Assembly: GCA_946479435.1 (NCBI GenBank)
Contig: CAMLFX010000003.1
Span: forward strand, 1 to 62,523
DNA length: 62,523 nucleotides
Reading direction: 5' to 3'
Source: an uncultured Sphingobacteriales bacterium
Lineage (GTDB): Bacteria > Bacteroidota > Bacteroidia > Chitinophagales > Chitinophagaceae
Both the position numbers and the translations under genes were made by a program. Under the pieces are notes generated by a model. It was given only the letters and a program-made list of their open reading frames with translations, had not been told where the DNA came from and did not search any database. How positions within the stretch are numbered: the first letter of the stretch is position 1; each line of letters starts with the position of its first letter. Shown here one piece after another: positions 6,693 to 14,831 of this stretch.

Positions 6693-6862
6693 ATATGATA
6701 GTAAAACGTAAAAATAGGCCAACTACCCTAATATGCAAGAATAGTAAAAGTATAATGTGTATGATTATTTTAACAAATAATGATCAACATCAACGCACTG
6801 GCAAACGTTATTTTTCTTAATTTAGTATATCACATTTATTTTTAAACCAGTTAGTTTTTTTG

Positions 6863-7498
6863 ATGACAAGAGTTATCGGGAAGGGAATAACTGCGTTATT
6901 ATTTACACTACTCTTTGGTAGCACCAGTCAGCAGGTGTTTGCTAATGACAGGCTGAATGTAGTAGTAGTGCAGAAGGATAATGCGCAGCAAATAAGGCAA
7001 CGGACAAGAGACATGTCGGTTTTCGGCTGGTCGCCGGAACGTAAATTGACATGGAACGATTTTCAAGGTAATATGCTTAATGATGTTACAGATGAAACTG
7101 CAGCATCTATATGTCATGGATTTGGGATACAGACGGATACCGAGGCAAGTGGTACTGACAAGGTAGTTGTTAACGTATTTAATGTATTTTATCCTGATAG
7201 ATCGTGGGTGCGAGATGGGCAGCAAAGCAACAGTGTATTGGGCCACGAACAAACACATTTTGATATTTGCGAGCTATACACACGCATTTTAAGGCAGCGG
7301 ATAGCTGATGCGTATTTAACAAAGAGCAACTTTAGCTGCCGTATAAAAGAGATATATGACCAGGTACAGGCCGAATATGTTTCAGAACAGGAACGCTATG
7401 AAAACGAAACAAATCATGGCTTGATAGCATTAGAACAACAGCGTTGGCAGCAAAATATATATGCTCAGCTTTCTACCGATAAATATGCATTACGATAG
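6863..7498 (+). CDS. DUF922 putative secreted zinc protease
   Basis: A 211-residue protein beginning at an ATG (a TTG codon just before is less likely). A signal peptide of about 28 residues ends near VFAND. The body matches DUF922: a WSPERKLTWNDFQG segment near residue 56 and an HEQTH motif (residues 128-132) followed by DICELYTR, consistent with an HExxH metalloprotease. The remaining 70 residues are helical and charged. Location is presumably periplasmic or extracellular; substrates are unknown. Its 3' end overlaps the convergent response-regulator gene by nine bases. Confidence 0.8.
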   Translation: MTRVIGKGITALLFTLLFGSTSQQVFANDRLNVVVVQKDNAQQIRQRTRDMSVFGWSPERKLTWNDFQGNMLNDVTDETAASICHGFGIQTDTEASGTDKVVVNVFNVFYPDRSWVRDGQQSNSVLGHEQTHFDICELYTRILRQRIADAYLTKSNFSCRIKEIYDQVQAEYVSEQERYENETNHGLIALEQQRWQQNIYAQLSTDKYALR

Positions 7499-7957
7499 CA
7501 GGCGCTGCCTGAGGAGGAACTCTAACTGCTCATTAGTAACACCAAGCTTTTTCGTTAGCTCTTTTTCATCCATTTTCAGGCGGTAAACGCCGTAAGCCCT
7601 TGTGATGGTAGCTTCAAGCTCAGCTTCGTTCCATGGTTTTGAGAGATAATGAAATATTTTCCCTTTATTTACAGCCTCAATAACCGCATTCATGTCAGCA
7701 TATCCCGTCAGTAATATCCGCATAGGATCGGGATATTCCTCCAGGATAGATTCCAAAAATTGCACGCCGGTCATGTTAGGCATACGTTGGTCGGTAATAA
7801 TAATATCGATTGGAGTGGTTCTGAGTACTTCTTTTGCTTCCTCGCCACTTATGGCTGTATATACATTGTATTTGATACGAAAAGTAGCCTTAAATGAAAA
7901 AAGGTTATTTTCTTCATCATCAATGTATAGAATATTAATTTTGTCGTTATCTAGCAT
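7490..7957 (-). CDS. Single-domain response regulator (RpfG-type receiver)
   Basis: A 155-residue protein made of one receiver domain (residues 7-125) and a 30-residue C-terminal helix. The acidic pair is in YIDDEENN, the phospho-acceptor is Asp56 (ITDQRMP), the switch residue Thr lies in LLTGYAD, and the conserved Lys is in LSKPW. The QRMPxMTG and TGYAD pattern groups it with receivers of the RpfG/HY family, but no HD-GYP or DNA-binding output is attached. The receiver is clearly paralogous to that of the hybrid kinase at 13285. It is divergent from the ThiF-nitroreductase gene and probably part of the same signalling cassette. Confidence 0.85.
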   Translation of the reverse strand: MLDNDKINILYIDDEENNLFSFKATFRIKYNVYTAISGEEAKEVLRTTPIDIIITDQRMPNMTGVQFLESILEEYPDPMRILLTGYADMNAVIEAVNKGKIFHYLSKPWNEAELEATITRAYGVYRLKMDEKELTKKLGVTNEQLEFLLRQRLLS

Positions 7958-7984
7958 CTCTCTTTATGCGTATAAGCCTTTTGG

Positions 7985-7992
7985 CAAAAGTA
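7985..7992 (-). promoter_or_regulatory. -7 box for the receiver gene
   Basis: On the minus strand this reads TACTTTTG, a full match to TAnnTTTG, placed 28 bases before the ATG of the response regulator. No clear TTG at the right distance was found. The divergent ThiF-nitroreductase gene starts about 100 bases away on the other strand, so the gap holds the control region for both. Confidence 0.45.
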
Positions 7993-8092
7993 ATCTCTTA
8001 CAAATTAAGTAATAATACTGATAAATAATATTCTGTTATTAAATATCATTTTCTTGAACTATTTTTCTGAACGGCTATCCAACACACTAACG

Positions 8093-10399
8093 ATGAACAA
8101 CGATTTTAATATCGCTATTAAAAAGACTAACGAGCTAAAAAACATTCACACCCCTGAAATCCTTGATCTTAAATCAACAAACGACAAACAACGATTTGAT
8201 GAATTAATTGCTTTAAATGGCCCGTATATACATGATGAAATAGAAGGCCAACTAAAAGAACTGATGAAGATCAGGAATCCCAAAATTAGAATAAAACCTG
8301 ATGAATACCCCGCTTTTATAAAAGAGCATCTTAAGGGGAATGACGTATTCAGTTATGGGTTGTGGGTATATTATCCCTGGTTGAATAAAATAGTACATAT
8401 TCTGCCCAAAGAGGAATTTATAGACTTAAGAACAGCGGCTAATCGCAATAAAATAACTACTGCGGAGCGTAATGTGCTGGCGAATAAAAAAGTGGGGGTT
8501 ATAGGGCTTTCCGTGGGCCAGTCGGTGGCGCTAACCATTGCTATGGAACGGAGCTGTGGTGAAATAAGGCTGGCTGATTTTGATACCCTGGAGCTTAATA
8601 ATCTTAACCGGATACGTACCGGTTTGCATAACCTTGGCATACGTAAAGTATATGCAGTAGCGCGCGAAATTGCAGAAATTGATCCCTTTATTAAAACTGT
8701 TTGCTATACTGAAGGTGTAACGGAAGAGAATATAAGCGACTTCTTTACAAAGGGTGGCAAACTGGATGCAGTAATAGACGAATGTGATGGTGTAGATGTA
8801 AAAATACTTTGCCGTATAAAAGCAAAAGAACTACATGTGCCCGTAATAATGGAGGCCAGCGACAGAGGAACATTAGATGTTGAACGCTTTGACCTGCATC
8901 CTGAAATGCCTATCATGCATGGTTGGCTGCAGCACCTGGAAATAGATTTTAATGTTTTAAAAAAACTGAAAACCAGCGAAGAAAAGCTGCCCTATATATT
9001 ACCTATTTCAGGCCTTGAAACGCTTTCGCCACGCATGAAGGCTTCTATGATGGAAATAGAGGAAACCATAACTACATGGCCTCAGCTTGCATCGGCCGTG
9101 GCCCTTGGGGGGGCCGTGACAGCAGATACCTGCAGACGCATCTTCCTGAACTATTTCACAGATTCAGGCCGGTATTTCATAGATCTTGAAAAACTGATAG
9201 AAGAAAAGCGGGAACCTGTAAAGCATGATATAGAATTGGAGCCAGCTATTAGCGAAAAAGAAATGGAGGAGGCCATCAGTAAGTTGTCGGTTACCAGTTC
9301 AGATGGATGTATCACTCTAAGTGAAGAAGAAATTAAGGAAATTGTAGCAGCTGCTATTACTGCCCCAACAGGTGGAAATTCACAGCCTTGGAAATGGAAA
9401 TACAGAGATAGTGTGCTTTATCTGTTTGCTAACCACGAATATGAAACGAAGCTGGTTGACTTCAACCATTCGGCCTCATACATTGGTTACGGCGCAGCAA
9501 CAGAAAATCTGATACTTAAAGCACATGAACTGGGATATGAAGTTGTATTGCAAAAACAGGAGGAGAATAATAAGCTAATAGCAGTTTACCAGTTTTACAA
9601 TCGCAATACAAGTGTAAATAATATTCAGCCACATATTGTTGATGATTTAAGCAGTGTAATATTCGACCGGGTTGCCAACCGTGCGCTGACACCAAGGAAA
9701 GTGATAGAAGGCACGCGCCTTGACGAGTTGGTAAAAGCAGCCCAAAGCATACCAGGCGCCAAACTAAACTTTGTTGATGATGAACAAGGGCTAAGGCAGA
9801 TAAGTGATATTATTGCTAAGGCTGACAGATTACGCATTATGCACGAAGGGGGCCACCTTGATTTTCTGGCTGAAATGGTATGGACAGAAGAAGAGGCAAA
9901 GAAAACCAGGAGAGGCATTGATATAAATACCCTTGATCTTACAGCCTCTGAAAAAATTGGTTTCAGGATGGTGAAAGACTTTGATGTAATAAAGCAGCTT
10001 AATAAATGGCAAGGCGGCAGAGGTTTAGAAAAAGTATCATACAAATCGGCTATAGCAGCATCGGCCATTGGGCTGATTACCATGCCTGAATTTAAACTGA
10101 ATACTTTTTTTGATGGTGGCCGTGCATTGGAGCGGGTATGGCTTACAGCTACCGCCAATAATATTGCTTTCCAGCCATTAAGTATATCTACGTTCTTATT
10201 CAACAGGTTGCGTTTTGAAGGCGATAAAGCCTTTCCACCGGAGATGGCGGAAGAACTGAAGCAAATGCGTACCGAATTTGAAAATGTTTTTACAATTAGT
10301 AAAAACCGGGTGGATATATTACTTTTCAGAGTTTTCCTAACAGATATAAAAGCAAAGCGGTCGGAGAAAATGCTGGTAGATGAAGTTTTATCTTTATAA
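8093..10399 (+). CDS. ThiF/E1-like adenylyltransferase fused to nitroreductase (Rv1355c family)
   Basis: A 768-residue cytoplasmic fusion. Residues 125-370 form an E1/ThiF Rossmann domain with the nucleotide loop GLSVGQS (138-144) and the DFDTLELNNLNR motif (162-173) that binds ATP in ThiF, MoeB and E1 enzymes. No CxxC zinc pair is seen. Residues 410-765 are a nitroreductase-type flavin domain with APTGGNSQPWKW (424-435), the usual FMN-contacting segment. The architecture matches the family named after M. tuberculosis Rv1355c, whose reaction is not established. An open TTG lies 13 codons upstream; the ATG is preferred. The GNAT gene follows 12 bases later, so the two are probably one operon. 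Adenylation of a carboxylate followed by flavin redox chemistry is inference. Confidence 0.85.
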   Translation: MNNDFNIAIKKTNELKNIHTPEILDLKSTNDKQRFDELIALNGPYIHDEIEGQLKELMKIRNPKIRIKPDEYPAFIKEHLKGNDVFSYGLWVYYPWLNKIVHILPKEEFIDLRTAANRNKITTAERNVLANKKVGVIGLSVGQSVALTIAMERSCGEIRLADFDTLELNNLNRIRTGLHNLGIRKVYAVAREIAEIDPFIKTVCYTEGVTEENISDFFTKGGKLDAVIDECDGVDVKILCRIKAKELHVPVIMEASDRGTLDVERFDLHPEMPIMHGWLQHLEIDFNVLKKLKTSEEKLPYILPISGLETLSPRMKASMMEIEETITTWPQLASAVALGGAVTADTCRRIFLNYFTDSGRYFIDLEKLIEEKREPVKHDIELEPAISEKEMEEAISKLSVTSSDGCITLSEEEIKEIVAAAITAPTGGNSQPWKWKYRDSVLYLFANHEYETKLVDFNHSASYIGYGAATENLILKAHELGYEVVLQKQEENNKLIAVYQFYNRNTSVNNIQPHIVDDLSSVIFDRVANRALTPRKVIEGTRLDELVKAAQSIPGAKLNFVDDEQGLRQISDIIAKADRLRIMHEGGHLDFLAEMVWTEEEAKKTRRGIDINTLDLTASEKIGFRMVKDFDVIKQLNKWQGGRGLEKVSYKSAIAASAIGLITMPEFKLNTFFDGGRALERVWLTATANNIAFQPLSISTFLFNRLRFEGDKAFPPEMAEELKQMRTEFENVFTISKNRVDILLFRVFLTDIKAKRSEKMLVDEVLSL

Positions 10400-10411
10400 G
10401 CGCTATTAGTA

Positions 10412-11104
10412 ATGATTAAGATCCGGGCATTTAGGGCTGTTGATGATAACGAGTCTTGCCAGAAATTTGTGGAGGGGCATATGAGGGTATTGAAGAATTT
10501 TGGCATTACAATGATCACTTCAGCCAATGTTGAATGGTTTACTGATCCTGATACTTATGTTATAGTAGCAGAATCAATGGACGATGGAAGGGTATTGGGT
10601 GGAGCCAGGGTTCAGGTTGCAAAAGGGAAAATTCCGCTACCAATAGAAAAAGCCGTAACAGAACTGGATGATAGTATACATGATGTGGTAAAAGATTACA
10701 TACCACAAGGTGTAGCAGAGCTTTGTGGCCTTTGGAATTCGAGGGAAATTGCAGGTATGGGTATAGGTAGCGTTTTTCTTACCCGCACTGCCGTAAGTCT
10801 TGCCCCCCAAATCGGTATCAAGTCGATGTTTGCGCTTTGTGCGGCATACACAGTGCAAATGGCACAAAATGCCGGTTTTCAAATAGCTACTTTTCTTGGT
10901 AACAATGGTACGTTTTATTATCCTAAAGATGACCTTATAGCATCGGCTATGTTGTTGCATGATATCAACGACCTGAGTTATGCAAGCGAGGCAGAGAGAA
11001 ATGAAATAAATTCGCTGAGAGAAAACCCTGTGCAAATTAAAACAGAAGAGGGAAGGAGAGGTGCATTTGATATTTTTTATGAATTGCAGCTTCCAATTTT
11101 GTAG
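10412..11104 (+). CDS. GNAT-fold acyltransferase, FeeM/LuxI-like
   Basis: A 230-residue protein with a GNAT-like layout: an N-terminal IRAFRAVDD strand and helix, a central strand pair (TYVIVAESMDDGRVLGGARVQ written in parts here: TYVIVAES, then VLGGARVQ), and the segment ELCGLWNSREIAGMGIGSVFL, where R/Q-x-x-G-x-G/A would bind the acyl-CoA pantetheine. The order and spacing resemble N-acyl amino acid synthases (FeeM) and LuxI-related exosortase-associated acyltransferases more than short ribosomal acetyltransferases, but this is a visual judgement. It lies between the ThiF-nitroreductase gene and the sensor kinase (8-base gap), suggesting it helps make the molecule the kinase senses. Substrates are unknown. 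Confidence 0.6.
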   Translation: MIKIRAFRAVDDNESCQKFVEGHMRVLKNFGITMITSANVEWFTDPDTYVIVAESMDDGRVLGGARVQVAKGKIPLPIEKAVTELDDSIHDVVKDYIPQGVAELCGLWNSREIAGMGIGSVFLTRTAVSLAPQIGIKSMFALCAAYTVQMAQNAGFQIATFLGNNGTFYYPKDDLIASAMLLHDINDLSYASEAERNEINSLRENPVQIKTEEGRRGAFDIFYELQLPIL

Positions 11105-11111
11105 TAAACTA

Positions 11112-13262
11112 ATGAGACATATAAAACTTATTGTTCTGGTTTTTATATGCATTTTATTTCAAAAAAATGCATTTGCCCAAAACCCTGTAGTGTACCGGAA
11201 TGCCGGTACTAATATGCCGTTTGGGAATACGGTATTGATACTTGAGGATAAACACAGCACACTTTCAGCACAGGAAGCAGTTAACGCAAACGGTTATATA
11301 CAAACAGCTCAACAGGTACCCAACCTGGAGATGAGCTCATCGGCATTTTGGGTGAAATTCGCTATTACTAATTTAAGTAATGAACCGGACCTGGCAATAG
11401 AATATCCGTACCCGACAATTGATAGTGTTTTGTTTGTAGAGGTACTCAATGCGGGCAGCATTAAAAGTATTGCAACGGGTGAATACCAGCCATACAACCA
11501 AAGGTTGGTAAAGCACCAGAATTATATATTCAACATACATATACCACAGGGTACTACAAAAACATTTCTGCTGCGGGTTAAATCGTCGGAGCAAATACAG
11601 TTGCCGTTGACTGTTGGTACACCGCAATCAATCTTAGAGTCCCTGACAGAAAAAGACCTGATATTCGGGTTATATGCAGGTATCATACTGGTTATGTTGT
11701 TCTATAACCTGTTTGTATATTTTACTGTACGCGATAATATTTATCTTAATTATGTATTGTATATACTTTTTGTGGGCCTAACGCAGGCATGTGTACAGGG
11801 TTATGCCCCAAGATTTTTGTATCCTAACTCACCTTATCTTGCCAACCTGATGATGGTAGTTGCCCCTGTATTTGTCGGGGTGACGGCTATAGCTTTCCTG
11901 AAGCGTTTTATGGCGGTAAAAGATTACACGCCGGTACTGAATAAAGTATTAAATATCTTTCTTGGTATATATGCAGTTATACTTGGGTTAGGTTTCCTGG
12001 GGTATTACCAGGTTTCGGCACAAATAGTGCAGATCAATGCCGGTGTCGCATCAATATTCGTGTTTAGCGTCAGTGTGATTATTGCAAGGAAAGGATATAA
12101 GCCTGCAAAATTTTTCCTGATAGCTTGGACTATTTTCCTTGCCAGTGTTATAGTGTTTGTGTTGCGCAATTTTAATGTATTGCCGTATAATAATTTCACA
12201 TACTACGCTTTGCAAATAGGTTCGGCACTGGAAGTAATACTACTATCATTCGCGCTTGCGGATAAGATAAACACCTTCAGGAAAGAGAAAGAAGAATCGC
12301 AGGCACAGGCTTTTTTAGCCCTGCAAGAAAATGCACGTATTGTTAGCGAACAGAACGTGATGCTGGAAACGAAAGTTAATGAACGTACCATCGAGTTAAG
12401 AGCATCGAACGACGAGCTGAATAAAACACTCAAAGACCTGAAAGAAGCGGAAATGCAACTGGTGGAATCGGAAAAAATGGCCTCGCTGGGTCAGCTAACC
12501 GCAGGTATCGCGCACGAGATCAATAACCCCATCAACTTTGTTACGTCGAACGTAAAACCTTTGCAAAGGGATATAGACATGATACTGGATGTTTTAGCCA
12601 AAGTAGAGGAACTTACATATTCGGATATAGGACAAGAGGAAAAAAGGGGGAAAATAGATGCGTTAAAGCAAGAATATGATTTCGACTACCTGAAAACAGA
12701 AATAGGCTATTTGCTGAAAGGTATCAGTGAAGGATCGAGCCGGACTGCGGAAATAGTAAAGGGGCTGAGAATATTTTCCCGCTTGGATGAAGATGACCTT
12801 AAAAAAGCAGATATTAATGAAGGGCTGGATTCTACCACCATTATTGTTAATAATTTATTAGATAATAAAATAGAGATCATAAAGGATTATGATAGTCTAC
12901 CTTTGGTGGATTGCTATCCCGGTAAACTGAATCAGGTATTTCTTAACATTATAACAAACGGTATCCATGCGCTTAAGTCGAAATTTCATGACCAAAAGGG
13001 TGGCGTAGTAACCATACAGACAAGAAGGGCAGATAATGACAAGGTACTTATCAGTATAAAGGACAATGGTACAGGGATGACCGAACAAACAAAAAAGAAG
13101 CTTTTTGAACCCTTTTTCACAACAAAAGATGTGGGGGAAGGCACCGGGCTTGGTCTGTCTATTGCCTATAATACAATCAAAAAACACAATGGTACAATCA
13201 GCGTAGAATCCGAGATTGGTAAAGGGACTGAGTTTGTAATAGAAATTCCTATAGCACAATAA
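11112..13262 (+). CDS. 7TMR-DISM sensor histidine kinase
   Basis: A 716-residue membrane kinase. A signal peptide (residues 1-23, ending AFAQ) is followed by a periplasmic 7TMR-DISM extracellular domain type 2 (about 30-170, with FWVKFAITN at 79-87), a seven-helix membrane module (about 182-385), a coiled coil (390-455), a HisKA-type dimerisation domain with phospho-acceptor His468 (TAGIAHEINNPINF), and a HATPase domain with DNGTGM and GEGTGLGLSI. The start at 11112 is chosen because it gives the signal peptide; the frame is open 17 codons further. DISMED2 domains have a jelly-roll fold and are thought to bind small ligands such as carbohydrates. It sits 8 bases after the acyltransferase and 22 bases before the hybrid kinase, so all are likely one transcript. 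Confidence 0.88.
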   Translation: MRHIKLIVLVFICILFQKNAFAQNPVVYRNAGTNMPFGNTVLILEDKHSTLSAQEAVNANGYIQTAQQVPNLEMSSSAFWVKFAITNLSNEPDLAIEYPYPTIDSVLFVEVLNAGSIKSIATGEYQPYNQRLVKHQNYIFNIHIPQGTTKTFLLRVKSSEQIQLPLTVGTPQSILESLTEKDLIFGLYAGIILVMLFYNLFVYFTVRDNIYLNYVLYILFVGLTQACVQGYAPRFLYPNSPYLANLMMVVAPVFVGVTAIAFLKRFMAVKDYTPVLNKVLNIFLGIYAVILGLGFLGYYQVSAQIVQINAGVASIFVFSVSVIIARKGYKPAKFFLIAWTIFLASVIVFVLRNFNVLPYNNFTYYALQIGSALEVILLSFALADKINTFRKEKEESQAQAFLALQENARIVSEQNVMLETKVNERTIELRASNDELNKTLKDLKEAEMQLVESEKMASLGQLTAGIAHEINNPINFVTSNVKPLQRDIDMILDVLAKVEELTYSDIGQEEKRGKIDALKQEYDFDYLKTEIGYLLKGISEGSSRTAEIVKGLRIFSRLDEDDLKKADINEGLDSTTIIVNNLLDNKIEIIKDYDSLPLVDCYPGKLNQVFLNIITNGIHALKSKFHDQKGGVVTIQTRRADNDKVLISIKDNGTGMTEQTKKKLFEPFFTTKDVGEGTGLGLSIAYNTIKKHNGTISVESEIGKGTEFVIEIPIAQ

Positions 13263-13284
13263 TTTTTTTGTATTTTAGTTACCA

Positions 13285-14379
13285 TTGAGCGACGTTAAAA
13301 AAATAAAACTACTATACGTAGATGATGAAGCTAATAACCTCATTAGCTTTAGGGCTTCTTTTAGGTTTGATTACAACATACAGATTGCCAATAGCACAGA
13401 TGAAGCGCTCAATATTTTAGAGCAACATAAAGATATCAGTGTAGTTTTATCGGATCAGCGTATGCCCGATAAAACAGGCGTTGAATTCTTTGAAGAAATA
13501 AGAAAAAAATATCCCAATCCTGTACGGATACTAATTACCGGTTACGCCGATATAGAATCAGTCATTGGAGCTATTAACAGGGGTAATATTTTCAGGTATA
13601 TTAAAAAGCCGTGGACTGATGTAGATATAAGATCGGCCGTTGATGAGGCCCAGAAATACTACATGGCCACTACCATGCTCACACAAAAAAATGAAGAACT
13701 ACAGAAAGCATACGCAGAGCTGGATAAATTTGCCTATAGCGCTACACACGATATCAGGGGGCCTATTTTGAGTATGTTAGGTATCATCAGTTTAGCAAAA
13801 GATACAGATGACAAAGATGATATAAAGGGAATGTTGGTAATGGTGGAAGATGCCATTACAAAACTTGATAATTATATTATCAGCCTGCACGATCACTATA
13901 ATGTGCGGCGTGGTGAACTGGAAATTTCAAATATTGATTTTGATGAGATAGTAAAAGATATGAATGCCATGTTTGAGGTGACGAGTAAAGTAGAAAATAT
14001 AAACTTTACAGTCACCCTATCACAGAATGAGCCTTTCAGATCTGACGCCACATCTATAAAAATAGTGCTTACCAATCTTTTATCTAATGCGTTCAAGTAT
14101 CAGAAAAAGGACGGTAGCCAGCACAAATTAGTACATCTTAATATTAAAATTAACAATAATGTACTTGAAGTTACTGTTGAAGATAATGGCATTGGTATAC
14201 CAACTGAAAGTATAAATCATATCTTTAGCATGTTTTATAGGGGAGCACACCAGGAGTTTGGTTCGGGTTTTGGCTTGTATAATGTAAAGGATGCATTGGC
14301 AAAGATCAACGGCACTATACAGGTTGAATCGGAAGAAGGTAAAGGCACTAATTTTAAAGTAATCATTCCGGGAAAATAA
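13285..14379 (+). CDS. Receiver-histidine kinase hybrid
   Basis: A 364-residue soluble protein: an N-terminal receiver (residues 6-125) with Asp57 (LSDQRMP), TGYAD and the Lys in IKKPW; a coiled coil (130-150); a HisKA domain with His155 (YSATHDIRGP); and a HATPase domain with DNGIGIP and GSGFGLYN. The start must be the TTG at 13285, because the next in-frame ATG falls inside the receiver. It likely takes phosphate from the upstream sensor kinase or is gated by it, then phosphorylates another receiver. It is followed directly, without a gap, by a stand-alone receiver, the most obvious target. Confidence 0.85.
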   Translation: MSDVKKIKLLYVDDEANNLISFRASFRFDYNIQIANSTDEALNILEQHKDISVVLSDQRMPDKTGVEFFEEIRKKYPNPVRILITGYADIESVIGAINRGNIFRYIKKPWTDVDIRSAVDEAQKYYMATTMLTQKNEELQKAYAELDKFAYSATHDIRGPILSMLGIISLAKDTDDKDDIKGMLVMVEDAITKLDNYIISLHDHYNVRRGELEISNIDFDEIVKDMNAMFEVTSKVENINFTVTLSQNEPFRSDATSIKIVLTNLLSNAFKYQKKDGSQHKLVHLNIKINNNVLEVTVEDNGIGIPTESINHIFSMFYRGAHQEFGSGFGLYNVKDALAKINGTIQVESEEGKGTNFKVIIPGK

Positions 14380-14778
14380 ATGAGCGACGAAAAACTACAC
14401 TTTATAGTAATTGACGATAGTAAACTTGACTGTTTTATAGCCGATAAAATAATTCAAAATACCGGCAGAAGTGCTAGTATATATACGTTTCAGCAACCTG
14501 CAGAGGCGCTAGAGCATATTATGAAGATCGACACAGCTAGTACAGGTAAAACCATTGTATTTGTAGATATACAAATGCCGGTAATGAATGGATTTGAGTT
14601 TGTGGAGGCTTTTGAGGCGTTAGATGAAGAGTTCAAAAAACCTTTTATTATATACATGCTTTCATCTTCCATAAATGAGAATGATATAACACGCGTGCGC
14701 AGGTACCCTTCAGTAAAGCAATTTTTAAATAAACCATTGAGCGCAAAAACAATGGCTACCGTATTGGAAGAATACTAG
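14380..14778 (+). CDS. Stand-alone response regulator receiver
   Basis: A 132-residue single receiver domain: acidic residues in VIDDSKLD, phospho-acceptor Asp63 (FVDIQMPVMNG), a Ser-rich switch in MLSSSIN and the conserved Lys in LNKPL. No output domain is attached. Its sequence is of the CheY/Rcp1 type and not a close paralogue of the receivers at 7490 and 13285. The ATG follows the TAA of the hybrid kinase with no spacer, so translation is probably coupled. A strong terminator follows, closing the operon that begins with the ThiF-nitroreductase gene. Confidence 0.85.
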   Translation: MSDEKLHFIVIDDSKLDCFIADKIIQNTGRSASIYTFQQPAEALEHIMKIDTASTGKTIVFVDIQMPVMNGFEFVEAFEALDEEFKKPFIIYMLSSSINENDITRVRRYPSVKQFLNKPLSAKTMATVLEEY

Positions 14779-14802: not shown

Positions 14803-14831
14803 AAGCCGGTTAATAAACCGGCTTCCTTTTT
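14803..14831. terminator. Hairpin terminator closing the signalling operon
   Basis: A perfect 9-bp stem (AAGCCGGTT with AACCGGCTT) around a 4-base loop, followed by a T-rich run. It lies between convergent genes and can serve both. Confidence 0.9.

Follow-up and report, generated by a model that had tools for sequence, protein, structure and literature searches.

The best described relatives of the genes presented here make N-acyl oxazolones. In TrzAS, which is known from mycobacteria and Rhodococcus, TrzA (Rv1356c) acylates tryptophan, and TrzS (Rv1355c) turns the product into an N-acyl tryptazolone by an ATP-dependent cyclisation and a desaturation that uses O2 (PMC12856293). The product of TyzACB are the tyrazolones (PMC10404671), and tyrazolones and phenazolones are cited in PMC12856293 as products of OxzAB. 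The role of the N-acyl oxazolones is called a major unresolved question by the authors of the TrzAS study, who find a hint of signalling in the cyclic-di-GMP genes that adjoin trzAS (PMC12856293). Here we describe a six-gene cassette from an uncultured Sphingobacteriales bacterium of the Chitinophagaceae (assembly GCA_946479435.1, contig CAMLFX010000003.1), of which a stretch of 62,523 nucleotides, here called the window, was analysed. It combines a TrzS-type gene and an acyltransferase gene with a membrane sensor kinase, a second histidine kinase and two receivers. To judge from the sequences of this and related loci, the product of the cassette is probably a signal derived from an N-acyl amino acid, for which the cassette also encodes a matched receptor. 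Its features are:

7490..7957, minus strand: REC1, a single-domain receiver whose gene points away from the other five (Pfam Response_reg, 74.4 bits)
8093..10399, plus strand: ThiF-nitroreductase, a TrzS-type fusion of ThiF and a flavin oxidase of nitroreductase fold, in short ThiF-FDO (NF005901; Pfam ThiF and Nitroreductase above cut-off)
10412..11104, plus strand: GNAT-fold N-acyltransferase of 230 aa in the TrzA/OxzA position (structure model)
11112..13262, plus strand: 7TM kinase, with a DISMED2 and 7TMR-DISM sensor half followed by a kinase half (PF07696, PF07695, HATPase_c)
13285..14379, plus strand: REC-HK, a receiver followed by a histidine kinase, with a TTG start (Response_reg 61 bits, HATPase_c 87.6 bits)
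14380..14778, plus strand: REC2, a single-domain receiver (Response_reg 40.2 bits)
14803..14824, plus strand, usable from both strands: terminator-like hairpin (pattern scan, consensus match only)

The first enzyme matches NF005901, the family of the Rv1355c/TrzS type, with 766.2 bits (cut-off 476) over residues 12-767, and shows the fusion of ThiF to a flavin oxidase that marks oxazolone synthetases of the TrzS/OxzB type. Like TrzAS, the cassette has this protein beside an N-acyltransferase, and both the ECD motif (residues 230-232) and the arginine of the flavin oxidase (Arg579) are invariant across the alignments, one of which includes two actinobacterial relatives. In a Mycolicibacterium relative the arginine lies 323 residues past the Asp of the ECD motif, which is the D217-R540 spacing of TrzS, and both residues are invariant in four sequences; D217 and R540 were compared by this spacing, the M. 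smegmatis TrzS sequence itself being outside the alignment, and Gln651 could not be placed surely. Bacteroidota and actinobacterial examples of the ThiF-FDO protein are about 32-34% identical. Like OxzAB and TyzACB, which give acyl oxazolones (PMC10404671), the cassette unites an N-acyltransferase, a ThiF protein and a flavin oxidase; the ThiF proteins of those systems, however, are placed in another subcluster than TrzS (PMC12856293).

The N-acyltransferase is encoded 12 bases from the ThiF gene, and its assignment to the GNAT fold comes from a structure model (pLDDT 88.9). The nearest solved folds are AHL (N-acyl homoserine lactone) synthases and FeeM, and the FeeM fold is shared across most of the length of the model. 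No Pfam or NCBIfam family, AHL-synthase families included, is matched at E 0.001, and a profile search against the PDB sequences gave only two matches, both at chance level (E of at least 0.6) and both to proteins other than FeeM. Membership in LuxI was rejected, since the fold alone is in common. In one locus (L018) TrzS and the GNAT are fused into one protein of 1006 residues. The original prediction assigned to the first two genes the synthesis of an acylated or adenylation-derived molecule, in agreement with the enzymology reported for TrzAS and TyzACB (PMC12856293, PMC10404671). Because these enzymes belong to a described pathway, the oxazolone chemistry is known in outline and the enzyme half of the cassette is not new.

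The 7TM kinase is a 7TMR-DISM receptor with both domains above cut-off (PF07695 176.4 bits, cut-off 29; PF07696 94.5 bits, cut-off 22) and a HATPase_c domain of 87 bits. Its sensor half comprises about residues 1-404 (DNA 11112-12323). In the structure model (pLDDT 90.2) this half contains a beta-sandwich which resembles the periplasmic domain of RetS; at the sequence level no relative of the sensor half was found in the PDB. The linked kinases set the cassette apart from TrzAS, as the terms "histidine kinase", "two-component" and "sensor" are absent from the main text of PMC12856293. Likewise no linked receptor is described for OxzAB or TyzACB in the available parts of PMC12856293 and PMC10404671.

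Related loci were collected in three samples. Set A consists of the best 80 of 480 loci from public genomes. Set B consists of 120 loci from genome draws of two orders: 100 are from the order of a Pedobacter, where 130 of the 300 genomes drawn bear ThiF, and 20 from that of a Flavipsychrobacter, where 23 of 298 do. It contains 120 of the 153 ThiF-bearing genomes of both order draws; four others sit in set A, and the remaining 27 and 2 were scored from short stretches or listed coordinates alone. The phylum draw covers 395 Bacteroidota genomes.

In set B the GNAT gene adjoins the ThiF gene in all 120 loci. The 7TM kinase follows in 117 (two real misses, L224 and L258, and one contig end) and REC-HK is present in 113 (the same two real misses and five contig ends). 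The corresponding numbers for set A are 75, 73 and 60 of 80, with nine real misses of REC-HK, among them L072 with its REC-HK upstream. A downstream receiver on the same strand is found in 58 of 80 loci of set A (ten real misses) and 87 of 120 of set B. An opposite-strand receiver accompanies the ThiF gene at close range in 68 and 105 loci of these sets, respectively. When set A members and short stretches are added, the 7TM kinase sensor follows in 103 of the 104 genomes examined from the Pedobacter order. The same is seen in 21 of 23 from the Flavipsychrobacter order (one miss, one contig end) and in all ten ThiF-bearing genomes of the phylum draw. For the 27 genomes of the Pedobacter order that lack a long stretch, the listed matches were read by eye, and by these the GNAT gene lies at most 150 bases from the ThiF gene and on the same strand in every case. 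Among the 300 genomes of that order 130 carry ThiF and 162 carry GNAT, each of the latter with one GNAT match, and all 130 ThiF genomes have GNAT (Fisher p 1.6e-54, uncorrected for kinship); the 13 GNAT genomes of the phylum draw include all 10 ThiF genomes. The original prediction named as its refutation the case that most relatives have the ThiF-nitroreductase gene and lack the GNAT and kinase genes; the opposite is seen in these samples.

The ThiF cassette is distributed patchily (10 of 395, 130 of 300 and 23 of 298 genomes), and the order of the enzyme genes is swapped in 54 of 145 loci. As a background we counted 57 7TMR-DISM domains in 20 genomes (about 96 Mb in total), which we picked among the cassette carriers, and in 20 of 20 one of these domains is encoded beside ThiF. 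Given the counts in the relatives and this background, the gene arrangement is far beyond chance. Two loci (L034 and L226) have a receiver gene between GNAT and ThiF-FDO. In L258 (L258:5682-14857) genes for a SpoIIE-phosphatase, a STAS protein and a HATPase_c_2 protein precede ThiF-FDO and GNAT and replace the 7TM kinase; this partner-switching set may serve as an alternative receiver of the same product class.

Outside Bacteroidota the pair of ThiF-FDO and acyltransferase occurs without these kinases (examples in PMC12856293, and our loci L288 and L289), and no histidine kinase is annotated within 5 kb at L288 or L289. On the Rhodococcus plasmid (L288:2853-7001) the neighbourhood of TrzS includes a GGDEF gene, which fits the cyclic-di-GMP genes noted in PMC12856293, as well as a divergent gene for a 252-aa protein, which is weakly GNAT-like (hhalign probability 22%); the one TrzS neighbour from Mycolicibacterium that was tested is not GNAT-like. 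Spread by plasmids within Bacteroidota was considered and is not supported, as none of the 16 plasmid records with TrzS relatives is from this phylum: 13 are actinobacterial and 3 haloarchaeal, and two listed haloarchaeal proteins match the nitroreductase part alone. The Cohnella genome of L036 encodes a second Rv1355c-like frame of 668 aa (G005:C1:2983467-2985155), in which the flavin-oxidase match precedes the ThiF match, so that the domain order looks reversed.

The middle enzyme of the cassette, which is ThiF-FDO in the window, turned out to be replaceable. Among the 120 loci of set B, 30 have a ThiF protein with no flavin-oxidase domain, either fused or nearby, and GNAT, 7TM kinase and REC-HK are present in all 30 (a same-strand receiver in 11). 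Of the 32 genomes with GNAT and without ThiF, 20 were examined. Each of them encodes an S-adenosylmethionine (SAM) methyltransferase together with GNAT and the 7TM kinase, and 18 of them REC-HK as well. These enzymes all match one class I SAM methyltransferase of about 254 aa (Pfam was run on three). A fourth form of the cassette came from the phylum draw, in which three GNAT genomes lack ThiF. Both of the two examined contain an ICMT-family membrane carboxyl methyltransferase (E 9e-15 against the ICMT structure 4a2n), with GNAT, the ICMT-type methyltransferase, the 7TM kinase and REC-HK in a row (L290:1856-6590 and L291:1477-6222). ICMT enzymes esterify the free carboxylate of lipidated cysteine. 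Since ICMT esterifies carboxylates and ThiF closes a ring on a carboxylate, the simplest common account would be that each middle enzyme masks the carboxylate of the N-acyl amino acid made by the GNAT. The soluble SAM methyltransferase might act elsewhere on the molecule.

N-acyl amino acid methyl esters, which the methyltransferase and ICMT forms of the cassette would be expected to make, have been called structural analogues of AHLs, and their synthesis genes in Roseovarius were reported as not found (PMC11580390). That work concerns a different phylum, and no receptor is named in the available part of it. The loci with GNAT and SAM methyltransferase (L268-L287) offer a candidate layout for such a synthesis.

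For the comparison with the enzymes, the 7TM kinase was divided into its sensor half and its kinase half. From 216 loci with GNAT and a middle enzyme, 196 have GNAT, sensor, kinase half and REC-HK. Length limits left 192 and the removal of sensors more than 85% identical left 156 (117 ThiF-FDO, 28 ThiF and 11 methyltransferase). On the trees of these 156 loci the enzyme type changes 7 times along the sensor half, 12 times along GNAT, 14 times along REC-HK and 16 times along the kinase half. With 190 columns from each alignment (12 samples) the numbers are 7.2, 13.2, 14.4 and 16.3, respectively, and shuffled enzyme labels give 36.7 changes on the sensor tree. IQ-TREE trees and approximately unbiased (AU) tests were calculated for 66 of the loci (all 11 methyltransferase, 20 ThiF-only and 35 ThiF-FDO), with the "quick" method and with long-branch warnings given. 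In these the methyltransferase type forms one clade by its sensors, with a support of 99, while a single methyltransferase clade is rejected for the kinase half (AU p 0.0012), REC-HK (7e-6) and GNAT (3e-32).

The co-variation is also seen within one enzyme type. In the 117 ThiF-FDO loci the distance between enzymes predicts the distance between sensors with 0.58 for FDO, 0.51 for ThiF and 0.40 for GNAT when kinase half and REC-HK are allowed for; the values for the kinase half are 0.06, 0.19 and 0.19. Where GNAT lies between FDO and the sensor (83 loci), the sensor is predicted by FDO with 0.47, by GNAT with 0.29 and by ThiF with 0.03. Where GNAT comes first (33 loci), FDO gives 0.79, ThiF 0.08 and GNAT -0.12, so that GNAT is no predictor of the sensor there when the other enzymes are allowed for. 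Thus putative synthesis genes are linked to a receptor that co-varies with them, as is expected of quorum-sensing systems.

Close relatives show that enzymes and sensor are exchanged as a block. The loci L168 and L170 are 86-100% identical in their flanks, 98% in REC-HK and 72-94% in the kinase half (windows of 50 residues), whereas the sensor windows fall to 8-48%, GNAT to 40% and ThiF-FDO to 43%. The same is true for L053 (Pedobacter caeni) and L057 (P. steynii), with 67-99% in the flanks, 98% in REC-HK and 76-98% in the kinase windows against 16-42% in the sensor windows, 42% in GNAT and 45% in ThiF-FDO. In both cases the step in identity lies inside the 7TM kinase gene, at about residues 350 to 450. 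Locus pairs whose REC-HK proteins share 92% identity or more number 98 (41 low and 57 high in sensor identity); with genomes counted twice removed, 78 distinct pairs (51 loci) are left. Among these the sensor identity is bimodal. It is below 60% in 31 low pairs (mean 36; GNAT mean 46, ThiF mean 63) and at least 70% in 47 high pairs (mean 88; GNAT mean 97, ThiF mean 95), and over all 78 pairs sensor and GNAT identity correlate with 0.98. Eight of the low pairs have no locus in common. In two of these (L202-L204 and L196-L211) the ThiF proteins are 87 and 93% alike, so that GNAT and sensor have changed and ThiF has not. A comparison of L242 (ThiF) with L274 (methyltransferase), which are 89% identical in GNAT, 82% in the kinase half and 28% in the sensor, indicates that GNAT can stay while the enzyme type changes.

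A comparable pattern is described for comQXPA of Bacillus, a pherotype locus at which the variation falls on the synthesis genes and on the N-terminal kinase part (PMC4008528, PMC4408185). In both systems synthesis gene and N-terminal sensor part co-vary at one locus and the side of kinase and regulator is conserved. The signal of comQXPA is a modified peptide, whereas that of the cassette would be a small molecule, and here the enzyme can be of another fold. AHL systems of the LuxM/LuxN type use a membrane kinase. The cassette is similar to AHL systems in its membrane kinase next door and in the presumed neutral signal, derived from an acyl amino acid by a GNAT-fold synthase. It differs from them in that its GNAT has no AHL-family match, a separate second enzyme would close the ring and the sensor is a 7TMR-DISM protein.

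From family membership, fold class, linkage, enzyme replacement, co-variation and block exchange, all read from the sequences, we infer the product, its identity with the ligand, its reach to other cells and the output of the phosphorelay. The GNAT would join an acyl group to an amino acid, the ThiF domain would adenylate the carboxylate and close the oxazolone ring, and the flavin oxidase would desaturate it, so that an N-acyl oxazolone results which is neutral and membrane-permeant. The fold, the conserved residues and the characterised relatives argue for these steps. In the 7TM kinase, the DISMED2/7TM half would then detect the product of the cell itself or of its neighbours, as linkage, enzyme-sensor co-variation and block exchange suggest. 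Finally, the domains point to a phosphate transfer via REC-HK and the two receivers, which would lead to an output beyond the cassette. The claim of the original prediction that the remaining genes detect the product is supported by the sensor half, which tracks the enzyme type, and by the block exchange of enzymes and sensor. In one ThiF-only cassette (L292:1367-3408) a receiver-PAS-HisKA_3 kinase stands in the place of REC-HK, with a LuxR-family response regulator behind it, which hints at control of transcription.

Several points weigh against a signal with a matched receptor. The cassette contains no gene for a DNA-binding output. Two set B loci, L224 and L258, are without the 7TM kinase, and set A has three real misses of GNAT and three of the 7TM kinase (L031, Cohnella L036 and L059); in the L031 genome a GNAT gene is found on another small contig. 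The locus counts ignore relatedness among the genomes, and the sets overlap in so far as 13 of 75 set A loci carry a GNAT that is letter-identical to one in the other sets. Tryptazolone levels were reported to be higher in cells than outside (PMC12856293), which disfavours a freely diffusing signal. Because enzyme and sensor genes adjoin, some co-exchange is expected by linkage alone, and linkage together with a fast evolution of the sensor could inflate the co-variation. However, these two alone do not predict the step inside the gene or the bimodality.

The product might instead be an antimicrobial, a surfactant or a membrane-active lipid which the cell senses itself, through the 7TM kinase, only in order to control production or tolerance, with communication not being the purpose. 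Such self-sensing is known from lantibiotic operons. N-acyl tyrosine derivatives of Stieleria are antimicrobial, and in Proteobacteria antibiotics below inhibitory concentrations induce oxazolones (PMC12856293). Linkage and co-variation also fit a self-sensed metabolite. Neither a transporter nor an immunity gene turned up among the genes conserved in the cassette, however, and the single copy per genome and the pherotype-like exchange fit a signal better, yet are not decisive. We consider this alternative rather unlikely, although it is a live rival. Regulators often adjoin the genes they control, and the kinases could thus sense another cue, such as envelope stress or a nutrient, and switch on the oxazolone synthesis without the product being their ligand. 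Among the matches listed by Foldseek, the fold family of the RetS-like domain has carbohydrate-binding relatives. A generic cue would, however, neither make the sensor half track the enzyme type, unlike kinase half and REC-HK, nor couple the identities of sensor and GNAT so closely, and this explanation appears improbable. That the genes have no functional tie, being neighbours by descent that move jointly through adjacency alone, is very improbable: the genes for enzymes and sensor do adjoin, and there is kinship among the genomes sampled, but the patchy cassettes keep their adjacency despite swapped order, fusion and replacement of the middle enzyme, the step in identity lies inside the 7TM kinase gene, and FDO predicts the sensor better than the intervening GNAT does.

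If the cassette indeed makes a signal and reads it with a matched receptor, its different forms could be members of one family of communication systems in Bacteroidota. Such a family would be built from one FeeM-like acyltransferase, one phosphorelay chassis, sensor halves and, matched to these, interchangeable carboxylate-masking enzymes (a methyltransferase of the SAM or the ICMT type, or an oxazolone cyclase to which a desaturase may be added), a proposal to which we give about even chances. We know of no acyl-signal system from this part of Bacteroidota. In titles and abstract openings of the papers listed by searches of an open-licence library, subscription journals and bioRxiv being outside this scope, oxazolone genes are not tied to a Bacteroidota sensor kinase. 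The link from the enzymes to sensing, the exchangeable enzymes and the pherotype-like exchange are likewise not named there and are to this extent new. One locus makes testable the role of N-acyl oxazolones, the ligands of 7TMR-DISM proteins and acyl signalling in part of Bacteroidota, and receptor specificity could readily be studied with the related loci, whose differences lie mostly in the enzyme-sensor block.

The layout of the window agrees largely with the original prediction, all six genes of which were confirmed. The start of the ThiF gene was placed at the ATG at 8093; an in-frame TTG is also present at 8054. The five plus-strand genes are separated by 12, 7, 22 and 0 bases, where 12, 8, 22 and 0 had been given. 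The divergent receiver is present as described; its distance to the ThiF gene, stated as 100 bases, is 135 when the ATG is taken as the start and 96 when the TTG is. The hairpin behind REC2, earlier called a strong terminator, has nine pairs, five of them GC, and T-rich tails on both strands. Since the whole scan yielded 8 candidates against 7.7 in shuffled sequence, its function as a terminator is plausible and not proven. Next to the cassette, at 6860-7498 on the plus strand, lies a gene for a protein of 212 aa that matches DUF922 marginally (28.0 bits, cut-off 27); this gene overlaps the end of the REC1 gene by a few bases.

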